64,000 nt of DNA from Oribacterium sp. oral taxon 102 (GTDB lineage Bacteria > Bacillota > Clostridia > Lachnospirales > Lachnospiraceae), in assembly GCF_013394775.1 (NCBI RefSeq), contig NZ_JABXYT010000001.1, forward strand, positions 1,874,501-1,938,500, read 5' to 3'. The position numbers and the translations under genes were made by a program. The notes under the pieces are model-generated. The model did no database searches and was not told the DNA's origin. It saw nothing but the letters and a program-made list of their open reading frames with translations. Every line of letters begins with the position of its first letter. Positions within the stretch are counted from its first letter, which is position 1. Of the stretch, positions 25,038 to 33,700 are shown in pieces.

Positions 25038-25406
25038 TTACAGCTCCACGATGCTCTCGATCTCGCAGAGCACGCCCTTCGGGAGCGTCTTGACCGCCAC
25101 GCAGGAGCGCGCGGGCTTCGAGAGGAAGTGCCTCTCATATACCGCATTGAAGGCGGCGAAATCCGCCATGTCTGCGAGGAAGCAGGTGGTCTTCACGACA
25201 TGCGCCATATCAGAGCCCGCCGCCGCCACGAGCGCCTCCACATTCCGGCAGCTCTGCTCGGTCTGCGCCTCGATCCCCTCCGGCACCGTGCCGTCCGCCG
25301 GATTCACCGGAATCTGTCCGGAGAGGAATGCGAGTCCTCCCGTGATATAGCCCTGCGAATAGGGTCCGATCGCCGCCGGTGCCTTGTCTGTTGAAATAAG
25401 CTTCAT
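25038..25406 (-). CDS. ridA: RidA family reactive intermediate deaminase
   Basis: 122-residue protein that hydrolyses reactive enamine/imine intermediates made by PLP enzymes such as threonine dehydratase. Family signatures APAAIGPYSQG and a late RSCVAVKTLPKGVLCEIE with the conserved Arg are present. The ATG at 25406 follows AAGGAG; upstream codons are leader. It lies next to the ilv locus, where ilvA produces the classic RidA substrate. Confidence 0.95.
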   Translation of the reverse strand: MKLISTDKAPAAIGPYSQGYITGGLAFLSGQIPVNPADGTVPEGIEAQTEQSCRNVEALVAAAGSDMAHVVKTTCFLADMADFAAFNAVYERHFLSKPARSCVAVKTLPKGVLCEIESIVEL

Positions 25407-25555
25407 CCTGTTCTCCTTTCCCTGTAAGAGCCGCTCTTCTTGAAGCAGCAAAAATATTCAGGTTATCTAAATATTATTATGGCGCAAAATCCCGGAGAAT
25501 GCAAGTCATTAAACCTCCCTTAATCCGCAGCTCTGTCGGCGAATCCGCGCTTTCT

Positions 25556-26044
25556 CTAGCTCTCCTGACTGCCGATCTTCAGAAGGGCGAGGGTTCCGGT
25601 GCGGGCGAGCTCCACGATGCTGACGGAGCGGAGGGTGTCCAAAAACATCTGAATGCGCTCCGGGGTATCGCACATCTGTATCGTCATATAGCTCTTACCG
25701 AGATCCACAATCCGCGCGCCCATGATCTGGCAATTCTCCATGATATCCTTCCGGTTATCACGGTTGTAGCGGATCTTCACCAGCACGAGCTCGCGGCAGA
25801 TGCCCTCCTCCTCCCGGAAGGTTCGTACCTTGATAATATCCAGCTTCTTATTGAGCTGCTTCTCGATCTGCTCGAGAGTTCTCTCGTCGCCGCTGGACAC
25901 GATCACCATATTGGAGACGGCATGATCCTCCGTCTCCCCCACCGCGAGGGAGTCAATGTTGAAGCAGCGCCGCCAGAACAGCCCCGCCACCTTCGCCAGC
26001 ACACCGGCGCGGTTCTCCACGAGTACGGAATAGATCCTCCTCAT
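25556..26044 (-). CDS. ilvN: Acetolactate synthase regulatory subunit, full length
   Basis: 162-residue regulatory partner of acetohydroxyacid synthase with an N-terminal ACT domain (YSVLVENRAGVLAKVAGLFWRR) and the C-terminal ALS small-subunit domain (residues about 85-160). It binds valine for feedback control in the family. The ATG at 26044 shares bases with the stop of the large-subunit gene (TGATG), so it is translationally coupled to the ilvB copy at 26044-27678. Confidence 0.93.
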   Translation of the reverse strand: MRRIYSVLVENRAGVLAKVAGLFWRRCFNIDSLAVGETEDHAVSNMVIVSSGDERTLEQIEKQLNKKLDIIKVRTFREEEGICRELVLVKIRYNRDNRKDIMENCQIMGARIVDLGKSYMTIQMCDTPERIQMFLDTLRSVSIVELARTGTLALLKIGSQES

Positions 26045-27678
26045 CACGCCACCTCCGATCTGTCCACATCGCATTGCAGCAGCACGGAGTCCTGCCCCGA
26101 GAGGAAGTCTGCGAGCTTCTCCTCCAGCTCCGCATTGCTTCGGATATGGAGGAAGCGCATTCCGTATGCCTCAGCGATCTTCGAGAGCTCCGGGCTGCCG
26201 TCGAGATCTGTCACGGAGAAACGGTCATGATAGGTAAAATGCTGGTACTGCCGTACCAGACCGAGCACGCCGTTCTTCAGCACGGCGATCTTGACAGGGA
26301 TATCATACTGCCGCATCGTCGCAAGCTCCATGAAGCTCATCTGGAAGGAGCCGTCGCCGCAGACCGCGACGACCTGCCGCCTCGGATCGGCGAGCTTCGC
26401 GCCCATCGCCGCCGGGATGGCGTAGCCCATCGTTCCCATTCCTCCGGAGGTCAGGAAGCGCCCGTTCCGCATCTGATAGCTGGCGCAGGACCAGAGCTGG
26501 TTCTGCCCGACATCCGCGACATAGACGCTGTCCCGCTCCATCTTCATCGAAAGCTTGTAGACGAATTCCTCCGGCGTTACCTGCTCCGCGCACTGTATGC
26601 GTTCGAGCAGCTTCGCAGCGTGCTTCTCCTCCGCTTCCCTTCGGTAGCCCCGCAGCCTCTCGAGCCAGTCATAATAGTCTGTCCGGATTTCCTGCGTATT
26701 GAAGGCGTCGAAGACGCTCGCGATATCCCCTACCAGCGGGATCTCCGGTCCCGCATTCTTCCCGATCTCCGCAGGATCGACGTCGATGTGGACGAAGGTC
26801 TTGTTCTCCGTGATGAGATCGGGCTGGGAAATCGAGCGATCCGCCACGCGCGCACCTACCATGATGATCACATCCGCCTCATTCATGGCACGGTTCCCGT
26901 AGCTCTTGCCGTTGTTGCCGACCATGCCGAAGTAGAGCGGGTTGTTCGTCTCCATCACCCCGATGCCCATCATGGTGCAGACCACGGGGATCTGGTTCCG
27001 ATCCGCGAAGAGCTTGACCCGCTCCGCGGCTCCCGCGAGCTGGACGCCGCCTCCGATACAGATGATCGGGCGCTTCGCCTCCTCCAGCCGCCGGAACATT
27101 TTTTTGATCTGTACGGCATTGCCCTGCACGGTCGGACGATAGGTGCGGAGCTTTACCTCCTCCGGATAAATGAAGTCCTCGACCTGCATCCTCTGCACGT
27201 CGATCGGGATGTCGATGAGCACCGGTCCCCTCCTCCCGGAATTCGCGATATAGAACGCCTCCCGCAGGATCCGCGGGATGTCCGATGCCCGCCGCACGAG
27301 GTAGCTGTACTTCACGAAGGACTCGCAGGCGCCGCAGATGTCCGCCTCCTGAAAGACATCGGAGCCGAGCAGCTGACTGTCCACCTGTCCCGTGAGCACC
27401 ACCAGCGGAATGCTGTCCGCGAAGGCAGTCGCGATCCCGGTGATGATATTGGTCGCACCCGGCCCGGAGGTGACAGCGGCGACGCCGACTTTCCGGCTGA
27501 TCCGCGCGTAGCCGTTCGCCTCATGCGCGGCATTCTGCTCCGTGCGGACGAGGATCGTCCGGATCTCCGTATTCAGGATGCTGTCATAGAAGGGCGCGAT
27601 CGCCACCCCCGGATAGCCGAAGACGTACTCTACCCGCTCCTGCTCCAGACACTTCGCCAGTATATCCGCACCGTTCAT
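26044..27678 (-). CDS. ilvB: Acetolactate synthase catalytic subunit (copy 1)
   Basis: 544-residue ThDP enzyme making 2-acetolactate and 2-aceto-2-hydroxybutyrate. Catalytic Glu in RTEQNAAHEANGYAR, central domain, and ThDP/Mg motif GDGSFQM with the downstream Asn in LKNGVLG. Paired with its own full regulatory subunit. It lies downstream of ilvA in the same orientation, completing the isoleucine branch order. A second catalytic copy lies 3 kb upstream. Confidence 0.93.
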   Translation of the reverse strand: MNGADILAKCLEQERVEYVFGYPGVAIAPFYDSILNTEIRTILVRTEQNAAHEANGYARISRKVGVAAVTSGPGATNIITGIATAFADSIPLVVLTGQVDSQLLGSDVFQEADICGACESFVKYSYLVRRASDIPRILREAFYIANSGRRGPVLIDIPIDVQRMQVEDFIYPEEVKLRTYRPTVQGNAVQIKKMFRRLEEAKRPIICIGGGVQLAGAAERVKLFADRNQIPVVCTMMGIGVMETNNPLYFGMVGNNGKSYGNRAMNEADVIIMVGARVADRSISQPDLITENKTFVHIDVDPAEIGKNAGPEIPLVGDIASVFDAFNTQEIRTDYYDWLERLRGYRREAEEKHAAKLLERIQCAEQVTPEEFVYKLSMKMERDSVYVADVGQNQLWSCASYQMRNGRFLTSGGMGTMGYAIPAAMGAKLADPRRQVVAVCGDGSFQMSFMELATMRQYDIPVKIAVLKNGVLGLVRQYQHFTYHDRFSVTDLDGSPELSKIAEAYGMRFLHIRSNAELEEKLADFLSGQDSVLLQCDVDRSEVA

Positions 27679-27718: not shown

Positions 27719-28918
27719 TCATACGAGCTTGAAGCCCCTCCGCACGAACTCGCTGCGGATCTCCTCTATATGCTCGAAATCCCTCGTTTCCATCTGTACG
27801 GTGAGGTAGCAGCCGTTGATGTCCGTGTCCTCCTCCGTGCTGTTGTGATCGACTTTCGTCACATTTGCGCCCAGATGTGCAATGATAGAGGACACCTCCT
27901 CCAGCTGTCCCGGCTTGTCGAGGAGCTCCAGCGTGAGACTTGCCTTGCGCCCGGTCTTCATCAGACCCCGGGTAATGACGCGGGAGAGGATGTTTACGTC
28001 GATATTGCCGCCGGAAACGATGCAGACGACCTTCTTGCCCGCGAGCGGGAGCTTATGGAAGAGCGCCGCCGCGACGGAAACCGCACCTGCCCCCTCCGAG
28101 ACGACCTTCTGCTTCTCCAGCAGCGTCAGGATCGCCGCTGCCGTCTCGTCGTCACTGACGGTCACGATCTCATCCACATACTGCGACACCAACGGGAGGG
28201 TCAGATCCCCCGGCTGCTTCACGGCGATGCCGTCCGCGAAGGTGTGTACGCTGTCCAGCGCCTCCATCCTGTGCGCATGGAAGGCGTGCTCCATGGAGGG
28301 CGCGCCCGCCGCCTGCACGCCGTAGACCCTGCAGCGCGGGTTCAGCTTCTTCACTACGAAGGAGACGCCGGAGATCAGCCCGCCGCCGCCGACGGGGACG
28401 AGCACCGCATCCGCATCCGCGAGCTGCTCACAGATCTCCTGCCCGATCGTTCCCTGTCCGGCGATGACATCAATATCGTTGAAGGGGTGGACAAAGACCG
28501 CCCCGCTCTCCTGCTGATACGCCGCTGCGGCATGATAAGCGTCGTCATAAACGCCGTCGATCAGCCGCACCTCCGCGCCGTAGCCCTTGGTCGCCTCGAC
28601 CTTCGAGATCGGCGCGGTCGCAGGCAGGAAGATCGTGGACTTCACGCCTGCCTTCGTCGCCGCGAGGGCGACGCCCTGCGCATGATTCCCGGCAGAGCAC
28701 GCCACTACCCCCCTCTCTCTCTCCTCCTCGCTGAGCGTCGAGATCCTGAAGTACGCGCCGCGGATCTTGAAGGAACCGGTATTCTGGAGATTCTCCGTCT
28801 TCAGATAGAGATCACAGTCCGTATCGATGCGCGTCGCATGTACGAGCTCCGTCCTGTTGATGACCGGACGGAGGGCATGCGCCGCCTGATAAACCCGGTC
28901 AAGGGTTAATTCTGCCAT
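27719..28918 (-). CDS. ilvA: Threonine ammonia-lyase (biosynthetic-locus, ACT-containing)
   Basis: 399-residue PLP enzyme converting threonine to 2-oxobutyrate. PLP lysine in NTGSFKIRGA, phosphate loop GGGGLISG, and a single C-terminal ACT domain (about 325-399). The short form with one ACT domain resembles TdcB-like or Clostridia ilvA; position between ilvC and ilvB argues for a biosynthetic role. Confidence 0.92.
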   Translation of the reverse strand: MAELTLDRVYQAAHALRPVINRTELVHATRIDTDCDLYLKTENLQNTGSFKIRGAYFRISTLSEEERERGVVACSAGNHAQGVALAATKAGVKSTIFLPATAPISKVEATKGYGAEVRLIDGVYDDAYHAAAAYQQESGAVFVHPFNDIDVIAGQGTIGQEICEQLADADAVLVPVGGGGLISGVSFVVKKLNPRCRVYGVQAAGAPSMEHAFHAHRMEALDSVHTFADGIAVKQPGDLTLPLVSQYVDEIVTVSDDETAAAILTLLEKQKVVSEGAGAVSVAAALFHKLPLAGKKVVCIVSGGNIDVNILSRVITRGLMKTGRKASLTLELLDKPGQLEEVSSIIAHLGANVTKVDHNSTEEDTDINGCYLTVQMETRDFEHIEEIRSEFVRRGFKLV

Positions 28919-29065: not shown

Positions 29066-30106
<1,041 letters not shown>

Positions 30107-30319: not shown

Positions 30320-30568
30320 TCAGGACCGGTCCTCCTTCGTGATCTCCACCTTCCGCACATCATAGAGCTTCTCAAGCTGCGCGACGACCTGCGTCCGCAT
30401 ATAGTCGTCTCCGGTGGATACGATTTCAATGTGGGTCACGCCCGGAATTTCGGTCGGCCCGGCATTGATGGATTCGATATTGTAGCAGCGGCGCGCATAG
30501 AGTCCGGTGATCCGGTTCAGTACGCCGAAGCAGTTATTAACCCAGAGCTCAATGGTGAATTTGCTCAT
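30320..30568 (-). CDS. ilvN: Short acetolactate synthase regulatory subunit (ACT domain only)
   Basis: 82-residue protein consisting of one ACT domain (ELWVNNCFGVLNRITGLYARRCYNIESI). It lacks the C-terminal domain of full IlvN and is probably the partner of the ilvB copy starting 12 bases upstream. Short one-domain subunits occur for IlvM-type enzymes. Coupling and spacing support a dedicated pair. Confidence 0.85.
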   Translation of the reverse strand: MSKFTIELWVNNCFGVLNRITGLYARRCYNIESINAGPTEIPGVTHIEIVSTGDDYMRTQVVAQLEKLYDVRKVEITKEDRS

Positions 30569-30580
30569 ACTTTTCCTCTC

Positions 30581-32236
30581 TCATCCCTTTAAGATAATCG
30601 ATTTGATCGACTGCCCCGGCGGAATCATAGGAAGCACCTTCTCATCCATATCGATATGGCAGTCCAGCAGTGCAGGCCCTCCCGCGCCGTCGATCTCCGT
30701 GAGCACCCGCTCCAGCTCCGAAAGCGTCTCAACGCGGTAGCCCGGCAGTCCGAACGCCCGTGCCAATGCAGGAAAGTCCGTCTTTCGATCCAGCGTTGTC
30801 TGGGAATAGCGTTCTCCATAGAAAATTCCCTGCCACTGCCGCACCATGCCAAGGACATTGTTGTTGAGCAGAATGATGAGGATCGGCAGCTCCTGACTCA
30901 CTACCGTACAGAGCTCATTCAGATTCATCCCGAAGGAACCCTCGGAGGTGAAGAGCACTGTACGTCTCCTTCCGGAGCCGATACAGCCGCCGATCGCGGC
31001 ACCGAGCCCGTAGCCCATCGTTCCGAGCCCGCCTGAGGTCAGCAGCGTGTGCGGCTTCTCGAAATGATAATACTGCACCGTCCACATCTGGTGCTGCCCG
31101 ACATCGGTCGCCACTACCGTGTCATCCTCCGTATGCCGCCGTACCGTCTCAATGATGCTCTTCGGATAGAACTCGCCCGGTCGATCCGGAACCACAGTCT
31201 GCTTATACTCCTCAATTGCCTCCCTCCACGCGGGGTGCCGCACGCCGGAGAGATCCCGGAGAAGATCCCGGAGAATCTCCTTCACATCTCCCTGCACCGA
31301 GAGATCCGGCCGGATATTCTTGCCGAGCTCCGCCTTGTCAATATCAATGTGAATGACGGTGCACTTGCTGCGGTATTCCTCCGGATCTCCGGTCGCCCGA
31401 TCCGAGAAACGGACGCCGACCGCGATCAGCAGGTCGCATTCCGCCTGCGCCTTGCTCGCCGCATAATTTCCATGCATCCCGCATAGCCCCAGATTGTACT
31501 CATAGGAATCGGACAATGCCGTCCTGCCCATCATGCTGAGCCCGACCGGCGCGTCCAGCCGCCGCGAAAGCTCCAGCAGCTCCTCCCCCGCATCCGCCGC
31601 GAGAACGCCGCCGCCGCAGTAGATGAAGGGCCGCTCGGCAGTCCGGATCGCCTCGAGCACCTTGTCCCTGTGATAGGTCAGCTTCGCCTTCTCCGGCATT
31701 CGCGGCACCACGGCAATCCCATACTCACATTCTCCGGTCTGCACGTTCTTCGGAATGTCGATCAGCACCGGCCCCTTCCTGCCCGCATTCGCAATCAGGA
31801 ACGCTTCCTGTATCGTCTGCTCCAGCTCTGTCACATCGCGCACCATGAAGTTGTGTTTCACGATGGGCTGGGTAATGCCGACAATATCTACTTCCTGAAA
31901 GCTGTCCCTGCCCAGCGCCTGCATCGAAACATTACCGGTGATGGCGACCAGCGGCACGGAATCGAGGTTTGCATTGGCGATACCGGTCACGAGGTTCGTC
32001 GCCCCCGGTCCGGAGGTCGCGATCACGACGCCGGTCTTGCCGGAGGCTCTCGCATAGCCGTCCGCCGCATGACATGCGCCCTGCTCATGCGCGCTGATAA
32101 CATGGTCGATTCGATCGCTGCACTTGTAAAGCTCGTCATAGATATTCAGCACCGCACCGCCCGGATAACCGAAGACCGTGTCCACGCCCTGTCGGATCAG
32201 CTCCTCGATCAATATTCTGGCGCCATTCAGTTTCAT
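30581..32236 (-). CDS. ilvB: Acetolactate synthase catalytic subunit (copy 2) with altered ThDP motif
   Basis: 551-residue ThDP-dependent enzyme, first structural gene after the leader attenuator. Catalytic Glu is present (SAHEQGACHAADGYAR). The ThDP/Mg motif normally written GDGSF is here SEGSF (Glu432 in place of Asp), followed by a normal LLNNNVLGMVRQW. The rest of the family core is intact (GDVKEIL, GGLGTMGYGLGAAIG). Glu can coordinate magnesium, so activity may remain, but the substitution is unusual. Confidence 0.9.
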   Translation of the reverse strand: MKLNGARILIEELIRQGVDTVFGYPGGAVLNIYDELYKCSDRIDHVISAHEQGACHAADGYARASGKTGVVIATSGPGATNLVTGIANANLDSVPLVAITGNVSMQALGRDSFQEVDIVGITQPIVKHNFMVRDVTELEQTIQEAFLIANAGRKGPVLIDIPKNVQTGECEYGIAVVPRMPEKAKLTYHRDKVLEAIRTAERPFIYCGGGVLAADAGEELLELSRRLDAPVGLSMMGRTALSDSYEYNLGLCGMHGNYAASKAQAECDLLIAVGVRFSDRATGDPEEYRSKCTVIHIDIDKAELGKNIRPDLSVQGDVKEILRDLLRDLSGVRHPAWREAIEEYKQTVVPDRPGEFYPKSIIETVRRHTEDDTVVATDVGQHQMWTVQYYHFEKPHTLLTSGGLGTMGYGLGAAIGGCIGSGRRRTVLFTSEGSFGMNLNELCTVVSQELPILIILLNNNVLGMVRQWQGIFYGERYSQTTLDRKTDFPALARAFGLPGYRVETLSELERVLTEIDGAGGPALLDCHIDMDEKVLPMIPPGQSIKSIILKG

Positions 32237-32481
32237 CTCCCTCTCCCCCGTCTCCGTTTTCGTGTCCTGCGAATCTCCGCTTTAATTCTTGTCCCGTCAT
32301 ATCGTCAAATGCTTCTGCAAGCAAGCCGGATCCTCTCACTCTTTCTGCATAAGTCCTCGCGGCACTTCGCGGCTTCGCTGCTTTCGTGCCGCTGACAGCT
32401 ATTCGCACTTTCGCGATGCTTCCGCATCGCTTCGTGCGACTCGGCTTCGCCCGGGAGGCTTCAGCCGACCTCCCTCAGTGT

Positions 32482-32514
32482 AGCAATCGCAAGCGATTGC
32501 TCTGAACCGCTCAA
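32482..32514 (+). repeat. 33-bp dispersed repeat, copy 2 (inverted)
   Basis: One mismatch in 33 relative to the copy at 29018-29050, in opposite orientation. The two copies bracket ilvB2-ilvN2-ilvC. Confidence 0.85.
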
Positions 32515-32584
32515 AGCCGCGTGGCTGCCCCGATCTCTGATCGGGGCAGTTGGGAGGCACACCTCTTCGAGATGTGGTCAATTA

Positions 32585-32620
32585 CGCTCCGAGTCTGCCT
32601 GATGGCAGACTTCTACGCTC
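32585..32620 (+). repeat. 36-bp covarying hairpin element, copy B
   Basis: Flanks CGCTCCG and CTACGCTC with arms AGTCTGCC/GGCAGACT around TGAT. Same length and flanks as 44117-44152 and 54571-54606 but with different arms. Confidence 0.75.
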
Positions 32621-32709
32621 TCATACCTGTTGTCCCGTCCGATAAACATGCGTCTGCCCATGCAAGCACGGCATCCGCATGTTTGCCGTCCGGGGACTTA
32701 TGCAGTAAA

Positions 32710-32745
32710 AAACCCTTACAGCGCTGCGCAACGCTGTAAGGGTTT
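32710..32745 (-). terminator. Attenuator terminator of the ilv operon
   Basis: A perfect 14-bp stem (32710-32723 with 32732-32745) with an 8-base loop and a run of six T on the minus strand. It begins 15 bases after the leader peptide stop and lies before the first structural gene, the position expected for an attenuator. Confidence 0.9.
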
Positions 32746-32760
32746 GGAATCCTGCTTTCT

Positions 32761-32859
32761 TTATCTACCCTGAAAAGCGTGACGCAAACAGCCATTACTG
32801 TCCACGACAATAATGTTCACCAGAATCATAATGACGGATAGAATCATGGTAATATTCAC
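32761..32859 (-). CDS. ilv operon leader peptide rich in Ile, Leu and Val
   Basis: A 32-codon frame starting at GTG (32859) after GGGAG. Residues 3-19 hold six Ile, two Leu and four Val, including the runs VIMILV and IIVV; the remaining part is ordinary. The TAA stop (32761) is 15 bases from the terminator stem, and a consensus promoter lies 33 bases upstream of the start. Starved ribosomes would stall at the branched-chain codons and prevent terminator formation, as in known ilv and leu attenuators. No antiterminator pairing was computed. Confidence 0.8.
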   Translation of the reverse strand: MNITMILSVIMILVNIIVVDSNGCLRHAFQGR

Positions 32860-32891
32860 AGCCCTGCGTCTCCCTTTCCTGATTTTTCGTT

Positions 32892-32920
32892 ATTATCCCA
32901 CGGAATATCAGGGCTGTCAA
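32892..32920 (-). promoter_or_regulatory. Consensus promoter of the ilv leader/operon
   Basis: TTGACA (32915-32920), 17-base spacer, GATAAT (32892-32897) on the minus strand. Confidence 0.85.
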
Positions 32921-33023
32921 CAATAAATCGGTTATGGCTCCTATATCGCAATTCTCATGACGCTCTATTTTTTACACCGCTCTTCAAGCTCCACTCCCGG
33001 CAGAATCACCAAACTGCCCGGCT

Positions 33024-33176
33024 CTACCTGACCTCCGTCACACCATCCGTCCGGATCCCGGTGTTCTTCACATGGACAGTCTCCGTCCGGCCATTCACCT
33101 CCACATGGGCGATGCACCGATTGGGACGATCTGTAAATATTCCCGTAGTAATGTTCTCATACCGCAACGCCGTCAC
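33024..33176 (-). pseudogene. N-terminal fragment of sfsA
   Basis: A 50-codon frame starting GTG at 33176, overlapping the nicotinamidase stop, reads RYENITTGIFTDRPNRCIAH then HVKNTG, the start of SfsA (sugar fermentation stimulation protein, about 230 residues). After HVKNTG the similarity ends and a stop follows at 33024-33026. A different frame continues for about 30 codons without recognisable SfsA sequence. Confidence 0.7.
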
Positions 33177-33700
33177 CCGTTTATGATCTGGATCTGGCAG
33201 GAACGCATGGTATCCAGCGCGGCCAGGTGCTTCTCCGGCGTAACCCCGGCACAGCAGGCAGCATCCACGGAAATCTTCACCTCCGGCATGGAAGCCTTAA
33301 GCAAAAGCGCATTGGAAACCACACAAATATCCGTGCAGAGGCCGATCAGCTCCAGCTCAATCTCCTCTCGCGAGGCGATCATCATCAAATCCGCAGCCAA
33401 CGCCAGGCTGCCAAAGGTCATTTTCTCATAGATCTTCGCACCGGCCAAAAGCTCTGCAATCTCCGGACGGATCTGCCAGCCGTCCGAACCTTTGATGCAA
33501 TGCGGCACCGGCAGGTACCTTCCCTCCTGTGTCTCTATGTAATTGGCACCGTGGGTATCCATGGTGGCGATCACATCTGCCGCAGGATAAGACCGGATTT
33601 TCTCCTTCACGGCCTCCACGATAGCGATCGCTTCCTTCGTCCCCAGCGCGGCATCTATAAAATCGTTCTGCATGTCGATGACAACCAGTATTTTTCTCAT
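33173..33700 (-). CDS. Nicotinamidase/isochorismatase-family cysteine hydrolase
   Basis: 175-residue hydrolase, probably deamidating nicotinamide in NAD salvage. Catalytic triad candidates Asp9 (VVIDMQNDF), Lys93 and Cys126 (GLCTDICVVSN), and metal ligands in MDTHGANY. Shorter than many PncA proteins. It sits among gene fragments, so the locus is unstable, but the gene itself is intact. Confidence 0.88.
   Translation of the reverse strand: MRKILVVIDMQNDFIDAALGTKEAIAIVEAVKEKIRSYPAADVIATMDTHGANYIETQEGRYLPVPHCIKGSDGWQIRPEIAELLAGAKIYEKMTFGSLALAADLMMIASREEIELELIGLCTDICVVSNALLLKASMPEVKISVDAACCAGVTPEKHLAALDTMRSCQIQIING

Follow-up and report, generated by a model that had tools for sequence, protein, structure and literature searches.

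How the synthesis of branched-chain amino acids (BCAAs) is controlled at the ilvB operon of Oribacterium sp. oral taxon 102 is a question raised by a short leader on the minus strand of the window, i.e., the whole stretch of 64 kb that was analysed, in which a promoter, a small frame crowded with Ile, Leu and Val (I/L/V) codons and a hairpin followed by a T tract precede ilvB. A preliminary description of this DNA had read the arrangement as classical ilv/leu attenuation and had set it against the T-box control for which the branched-chain operons of Clostridia are better known. The question is therefore whether the leader is an attenuator read by a translating ribosome, whether it carries the alternative pairing that such a device needs, and how it stands to the T-boxes of the same genome and class.

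Architecture of the locus

The presence of a promoter, an I/L/V-rich frame and a terminator upstream of ilvB is confirmed (Table 1). The promoter is near consensus, with 11 of 12 positions matching in the –35 and –10 boxes, a spacer of 17 nucleotides and a TG before the –10 box, and in the 32-codon frame 12 of residues 3 to 19 are Ile, Leu or Val, which agrees with the preliminary description; six of the 12 are Ile. Among the frames of 15 to 50 codons on both strands of the 64 kb it is the sole one with at least 12 I/L/V per 17 residues, and no frame with 12 or more in 17 arose when the window was regenerated 60 times as a first-order Markov copy, so that the observation is correct and not a product of chance. 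The 192 nt of the leader fold with a better energy than 200 of 200 shuffles (z –5.4). Two features of the window leader, its GTG start and the loose spacing of its Shine-Dalgarno sequence, count against the attenuator reading.

The six Ile codons of the leader are all ATT, a codon used for 58 of the 257 Ile residues in ten genes of the window. A partial explanation for this usage may lie in the P1 hairpin, which is formed within the Ile-Ile-Val codons; across the leaders of relatives described below, 92.5% of its cells are paired, both partners vary at 2 of 10 pairs, and it is presumably an RNA polymerase pause hairpin.

The intrinsic terminator, located between the leader frame and ilvB as the first gene, begins 15 nt past the leader stop codon and has a run of six T, as originally described, whereas the stem of 14 bp given with it has to be corrected, since the fold yields 16 pairs closed by a 4-nt loop (–25.0 kcal/mol). 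The six-T run is partly consumed by outer A-U pairs, and it is probably because these shorten the free T run that a consensus terminator scan, which listed none in 32000-33500 on either strand, missed the hairpin at 32745-32707. Across the leaders 96.0% of the terminator cells are paired, and changes on both sides are seen at 5 of 11 pairs.

Table 1. Features of the leader and of the operon that follows it, in window coordinates.
Feature	Position	Strand	Details	Basis
Promoter, sigma-70 type	32892..32920	–	TTGACA-17-GATAAT, extended –10 TG	consensus scan, 11/12 matches
Leader ribosome-binding region	32865..32880	–	AGGAAAGGGAGACGCA	sequence
Strand 1	32870-32865	–	GACGCA, 3' end of the leader ribosome-binding region, complementary to part of strand 2	fold
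Leader peptide frame	32761..32859	–	32 codons, GTG 32859 to TAA 32761, I/L/V cluster at residues 3-19; peptide VNITMILSVIMILVNIIVVDSNGCLRHAFQGR	sequence; frame conserved in relatives
P1 hairpin (presumed pause hairpin)	32793..32815	–	in Ile-Ile-Val codons, CATTATTGTC-GTG-GACAGTAATG	conserved pairing
Strand 2, antiterminator 5' half	32768..32785	–	GCGTCACGCT...AGGG, overlaps the end of the leader frame	complementarity, covariation
Strand 3, antiterminator 3' half and terminator 5' arm	32726..32742	–	CCCTTACAGCGTTGCGC	complementarity, covariation
Intrinsic terminator 3:4	32707..32745	–	stem 32745-32710, plus T tract	fold; conserved pairing
ilvB	30581..32236	–	acetolactate synthase large subunit, first gene past the terminator	TIGR00118, Pfam
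ilvN-like	30320..30568	–	short small subunit, 82 aa	TIGR00119
ilvC	29066..30079	–		TIGR00465
ilvA	27719..28918	–		TIGR01127
Second acetolactate synthase pair	25556..27678	–	large subunit 27678-26044, small subunit 26074-25556	TIGR00118, TIGR00119
Rid family deaminase	25038..25451	–		TIGR00004

About 470 nt separate the terminator from ilvB, and the operon of ilvB, ilvN, ilvC and ilvA makes the very amino acids that the leader would sense. From their order and strand, the genes of the second acetolactate synthase pair are probably cotranscribed with them, and the gene of the Rid family deaminase is possibly the last of the operon. The stretch from 32238 to 32520 is repeat-rich, giving 53 matches across the genome when it is counted too, and a sub-threshold match to Clostridiales-1 RNA at 32349-32473 falls inside this repeat stretch between terminator and ilvB; in another Oribacterium (L006) a different stretch is repeated in tandem in the same interval.

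Conservation in Oribacterium and Lachnospiraceae

The genus sample comprised 17 Oribacterium genomes, the own one included, and an ilvB was counted as being of this type at an identity of at least 67%. The leader frame and the terminator lie before ilvB in all 12 genomes (own included) that have a full-length ilvB of this type. Of the remaining ones, G003 is cut by a contig end, G005 has only a relative of 35% identity, G001 and G002 have none at E 1e-100, and G007, with a divergent ilvB (52% identical), has no leader within 700 nt. A species-wide pattern scan found 11 stretches, ten from Oribacterium and one from 'Lachnospiraceae bacterium JC7', and in each of the 11 the ilvB signature GYPGG follows 156-586 nt past the motif.

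In the family sample (397 genomes of 334 genera; cut-off for the ilvB type 66% or more) this ilvB occurs in eight genera outside Oribacterium, seven of which have the leader frame and the terminator (G048, G072 with its congener G393, G163, G259, G300, G311 and G314; the G163 leader lies in two pieces at contig ends), and the eighth (G324, ilvB identity 74%) has no frame of this kind in the 500-700 nt adjoining ilvB. The peptides of the other genera are recognisably related (VVIRIIVSIIVVDGNAYLRYA) but differ in sequence and length, and 16 of the 17 aligned leaders hold 13-18 I/L/V residues, with 8 in the remaining one. The frame and the stem singled out by the preliminary description are thus kept before ilvB in relatives.

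An antiterminator that excludes the terminator

Strand 2 has its complement in the terminator, in whose 5' arm and loop strand 3 lies, and the 2:3 antiterminator thus formed is exclusive with the terminator and is kept by compensatory change. Its core is paired in 150 of 170 cells across the 17 leaders and in 98 of 110 when only the 11 distinct rows are counted; when strand 3 was re-dealt among these rows, the mean was 88.2 paired cells and 3 of 5000 trials reached 98, and slid strand 3 partners gave just 15-49 paired cells of 110. One antiterminator pair is found as C-G, A-U and U-A among the leaders. On six antiterminator pairs, three of five covariation measures beat every shuffle: the pairs are 90.6% paired against a shuffled mean of 75.4%, and their covariation score is 0.361 against a shuffled mean of 0.089, in both cases with 0 of 500 shuffles as high. 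The other two measures on the same six pairs are no better than shuffles (474 of 500 for both-side changes and 421 of 500 for pair types). The duplex energy of strands 2 and 3 in the window is equalled by none of 1000 shuffles, and in the 16 other leaders by 1-45 of 1000. An alternative to the terminator therefore exists and covaries, and the classical ilv/leu architecture that had been proposed for the locus is supported both by the conserved frame and stem and by this covarying, mutually exclusive pairing.

Ribosome position and the choice of structure

The effect of the ribosome on this choice was modelled in two ways. In a downstream-only model the RNA behind the ribosome front is barred from pairing with the RNA ahead, which is a reasonable assumption and not a result, and in an unrestricted model the whole nascent RNA is folded with the ribosome masked, re-pairing across the ribosome being allowed. 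A switch by ribosome position is predicted by one of the two. With the downstream-only model the predicted probability of the antiterminator in the window is 0.82-0.99 at every I/L/V codon from 3 to 19, and passage beyond codon 24 abolishes it, the value being 0.00 at codon 25 and at all later ones up to the stop. In 17 of 17 leaders it drops to 0.06 or less at some codon between 23 and 27. A few codons within the cluster have values below 0.5, namely codons 14-16 of G048, codon 15 of G311 and codon 5 of G314.

With the unrestricted model, the window leader forms the antiterminator only when the ribosome is stalled at codon 3 (0.97), the value being at most 0.12 at the other I/L/V codons. Three leaders (G011, G013 and G004) hardly form it (0.11 or less), in three (G048, G072 and G314) its values are poor at many codons of the cluster, and with the ribosome at the stop codon it persists in G072 (0.53) and G314 (0.30). 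The antiterminator is weakened in this model because the leader ribosome-binding region largely takes strand 2, and a trailing ribosome seated on the leader binding site would remove the re-pairing problem. Three Oribacterium leaders (L002, L004 and L006) have a one-base insertion which shifts the stop codon into strand 2, so that the peptide ends in NSAFFV; the downstream-only switch model still works with them despite the shifted stop codon.

T-boxes of the same genome

No Rfam family reached the gathering score in the window, and at E up to 5 the region 32200-33000 gave three matches and no T-box. Two of these, the sub-threshold Clostridiales-1 RNA mentioned above and a group II intron piece, are outside the leader, and the third is a sub-threshold microRNA over the terminator. 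With no RF00230 match here, the earlier remark that the leader has no T-box is borne out, and as a positive control the same family finds three T-boxes elsewhere in the genome. Their specifiers, by our own reading of the RF00230 alignment position, would be AUC (Ile), UGG (Trp) and UUC (Phe). The T-box read as AUC (L072 1-3044, minus strand) precedes a gene for an SBF family transporter and then ilvD, the one read as UGG an ABC transporter substrate-binding gene, and the one read as UUC pheST, the latter two targets being named by eye from their translations. The genome also has a gene identified by eye as leuA-like (PF00682), and the stretch read there shows no I/L/V leader. One genome thus apparently places a transporter gene and ilvD under a T-box and ilvBNCA under a leader peptide, so that within one pathway the same amino acid would be read by RNA in two different ways.

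Leader peptides elsewhere in Clostridia

For the class sample, the region upstream of the best ilvB match was taken from 80 of the 97 further genomes of the class in which there was a match. Of these 80 regions, 12 carry a T-box oriented like the gene, and 3 an I/L/V-rich frame with a terminator by a strict rule, under which the reverse strand gave 0 of 80 and five shuffled sets gave 0. The same rule also picks out G465 and G566 of this sample, giving 5 of 82, and G629, G673 and G532 of another class sample. By eye, the peptides before ilvB in other clostridial families are unrelated to that of the window, and candidate leader peptides before ilvB occur in no fewer than five families of the class, counting that of the window. 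Such candidates are rarer than T-boxes in the clostridial sample, and the antiterminator has support in only some of them. The contrast with T-box control drawn in the preliminary description holds in part: a T-box read as Ile-type precedes the transporter gene and ilvD of this very genome, and the sampled ilvB regions give 12 of 80 for the T-box against 5 of 82 for the leader with terminator.

A generic antiterminator test, applied to 16 other leader-plus-terminator cases with 500 shuffles each, had an uneven outcome: 2-7 of 500 shuffles were as good for L082, L084, L087, L090 and L195, 29-49 for L193, L194, L199 and L200, and 108-458, i.e., no support, for L086, L088, L133, L145, L185, L186 and L182. 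One shared cassette is not claimed as shown. A weight matrix of strand 2 gave no signal in 8 of the same 16 (104-395 of 500); the counts were 13-37 of 500 for L084, L133, L145 and L195, and 0-6 for L182, L193, L194 and L199, all of which are picks of the RNA model and thus a biased choice.

The RNA model of the element was applied to 397 genomes of the family and 391 of the class; just eight candidates of each genome were scored, under stricter filters, so that the counts are lower bounds. Weak matches (E about 1e-4 to 1e-3) were set aside as including leaderless terminators or repeats (e.g., L188, L189, L197 and L205). The best match outside the family (L193, 1478-1632; E 1.1e-14 in its genome) is an Ile-rich leader, MNNIYFVIISIILISIIIIRDTAVLRCAKIKG, with a terminator before a GerA spore germination gene, and could represent an ilv leader displaced by rearrangement or by misassembly. 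Ile-rich leader frames (e.g., MTANFNTLALIIYIIISIIIIGYASLCMNMLPVSRKIEIQS) with a terminator also stand before the gene of an OmpR-type response regulator in L194 and L195, in the latter directly behind a frame identified by eye as ilvD-like.

In five clostridial genomes (L182, L185, L186, L199 and L200) short frames rich in Phe and Tyr, together with a terminator, lie directly before the gene of DAHP synthase (PF00793), near 1.4-1.6 kb on the gene strand; the start codon of L185 is ambiguous and antiterminator support is uneven among them. These frames are candidate aromatic amino acid attenuators, and a uORF before aroF has been reported in Acholeplasma, according to the available part of that study (PMC8632094). 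It is conceivable, if on balance rather doubtful, that leader-peptide attenuation forms a common and largely unrecorded second layer beside the T-box in Clostridia, in which similar attenuator bodies are joined to sensing codons that vary with the gene controlled: Ile/Leu/Val for ilvB in several families, Phe/Tyr for DAHP synthase and Ile for the OmpR-type regulator. A pathway could then be divided between the two mechanisms within one genome.

Proposed mechanism and alternatives

The element very probably belongs to the ilv/leu type of ribosome-mediated attenuators of transcription and would control ilvB-ilvN-ilvC-ilvA and probably the later genes. Transcription would start just downstream of 32892 and the RNA polymerase would copy the leader. 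When charged Ile, Leu and Val tRNAs are plentiful, the ribosome would reach the stop codon and block strand 2, leaving strand 3 to pair with strand 4 as the terminator. By contrast, a shortage of these tRNAs, and above all of tRNA-Ile, which is called for by six codons of the leader, would stall the ribosome within codons 3-19; strand 2 would remain free, strands 2 and 3 would pair, no terminator would form and the operon would be transcribed. In a leader that is not translated, strand 2 would tend to pair with strand 1, with the terminator as the default. We infer that termination takes place in vivo, that it depends on amino acid supply and that the default state holds when translation does not occur.

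A different use of the same parts would be an attenuator that reads mainly the initiation of translation, in which strand 1 is the leader's own ribosome-binding site, general translation capacity is sensed and codon stalling is secondary. The 1:2 pairing is indeed present in the minimum-energy fold of the window leader, in 14 of 17 leaders the ACGCA core of strand 1 directly adjoins the start codon on its 5' side, and the results of the unrestricted model, in which strand 1 may re-pair, point the same way. However, this pairing beats shuffles at <5% in 12 of 17 leaders and does not do so in the other 5, the window included (32 of 500 shuffles as good), and the frame remains rich in I/L/V through sequence change, so that we give initiation sensing as the main function very little credence.

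Were the frame to encode a small functional membrane peptide, with a promoter and terminator of its own and unrelated to ilvB control, its hydrophobic product, with an I/L/V core that would fit a membrane helix, and the terminator after it would be accounted for; against this, all 11 species-wide pattern matches sit just before ilvB, the complementarity of the antiterminator covaries, I/L/V-rich peptides that are unrelated by eye occupy the same place before ilvB in other clostridial families, and three of the peptides have no NCBIfam family at E up to 1, which together make it highly improbable. A leader acting as a T-box or as a riboswitch for a metabolite or ppGpp, with a frame present by coincidence, might be suggested by the T-boxes elsewhere in the genome, one of them before the transporter gene and ilvD, and by those in 12 of 80 sampled clostridial ilvB upstream regions; but with no Rfam family at gathering score in the window, and with the weak matches at E up to 5 either sub-threshold or outside the leader, its probability is close to nil.

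Comparison with known systems

The attenuator of ilvB places trp-style classical attenuation of branched-chain synthesis in Lachnospiraceae, with covariation as evidence; the Ile-read T-box and the leader peptide, being in one genome, allow their sensitivity and speed to be compared directly, and the survey points to more candidates of this kind in other clostridial families, with leader peptides upstream of ilvB and of DAHP synthase. In the attenuators of Escherichia coli, strand 1 lies within the control codons. The ilvGMEDA, ilvBN and leu attenuators of E. coli and Salmonella resemble the Oribacterium element in their BCAA-rich leader, in the alternatives of terminator and antiterminator and in the control of ilvBN, but the present host is a clostridium, strand 1 may here lie in the leader ribosome-binding region, and the comparison is one of layout. 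The E. coli leader peptides have 32 aa each, with 11 BCAAs for ilvBN and 15 for ilvGMEDA, as given in the available part of PMC6123439.

The mechanism, ribosome-mediated ilv attenuation, is thus known, and its instance in Oribacterium and the Clostridia is new within the literature searched: the available parts of the open-access papers covered (PMC6123439, PMC8632094, PMC9413887, PMC10272879, PMC11109978, PMC5794164) mention no leader attenuator for BCAAs from Oribacterium, from Lachnospiraceae or from any other clostridium. Attenuators with leader peptides are described by comparative genomics for his operons of other Firmicutes, namely in Peptostreptococcaceae, Erysipelotrichales and the Bacillus cereus group; unlike the Oribacterium element they serve the histidine operon, and the available part of that work has no BCAA leader among them (PMC9413887).

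Among low-GC Gram-positives, ribosome-mediated control of BCAA synthesis is shared with the ilv-leu attenuators of Bacilli, which are described for Staphylococcus aureus and Listeria monocytogenes and predicted in Lactococcus and Streptococcus in the accessible portions of PMC6123439 and PMC5794164. The S. aureus element, as characterized there, stands before ilvD, is Leu-rich with three Ile and works beside CodY, whereas in the Oribacterium leader Ile is the commonest residue and the gene that follows is ilvB, with ilvD situated downstream of a distinct T-box. A BCAA-rich uORF before ilvB is also the common feature of the present leader with three motifs in the available text of PMC10272879, i.e., ilvB-II, which has a terminator and is reported there from Corynebacterium only, and the ilvB-OMG and Leptospira ilvB motifs, both proposed attenuators. 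For ilvB-OMG, 41 members 'from various bacterial phyla' are given, whose peptides are enriched in threonine as well as BCAAs (PMC10272879), and, compared by description only, this motif may overlap with the Oribacterium element.
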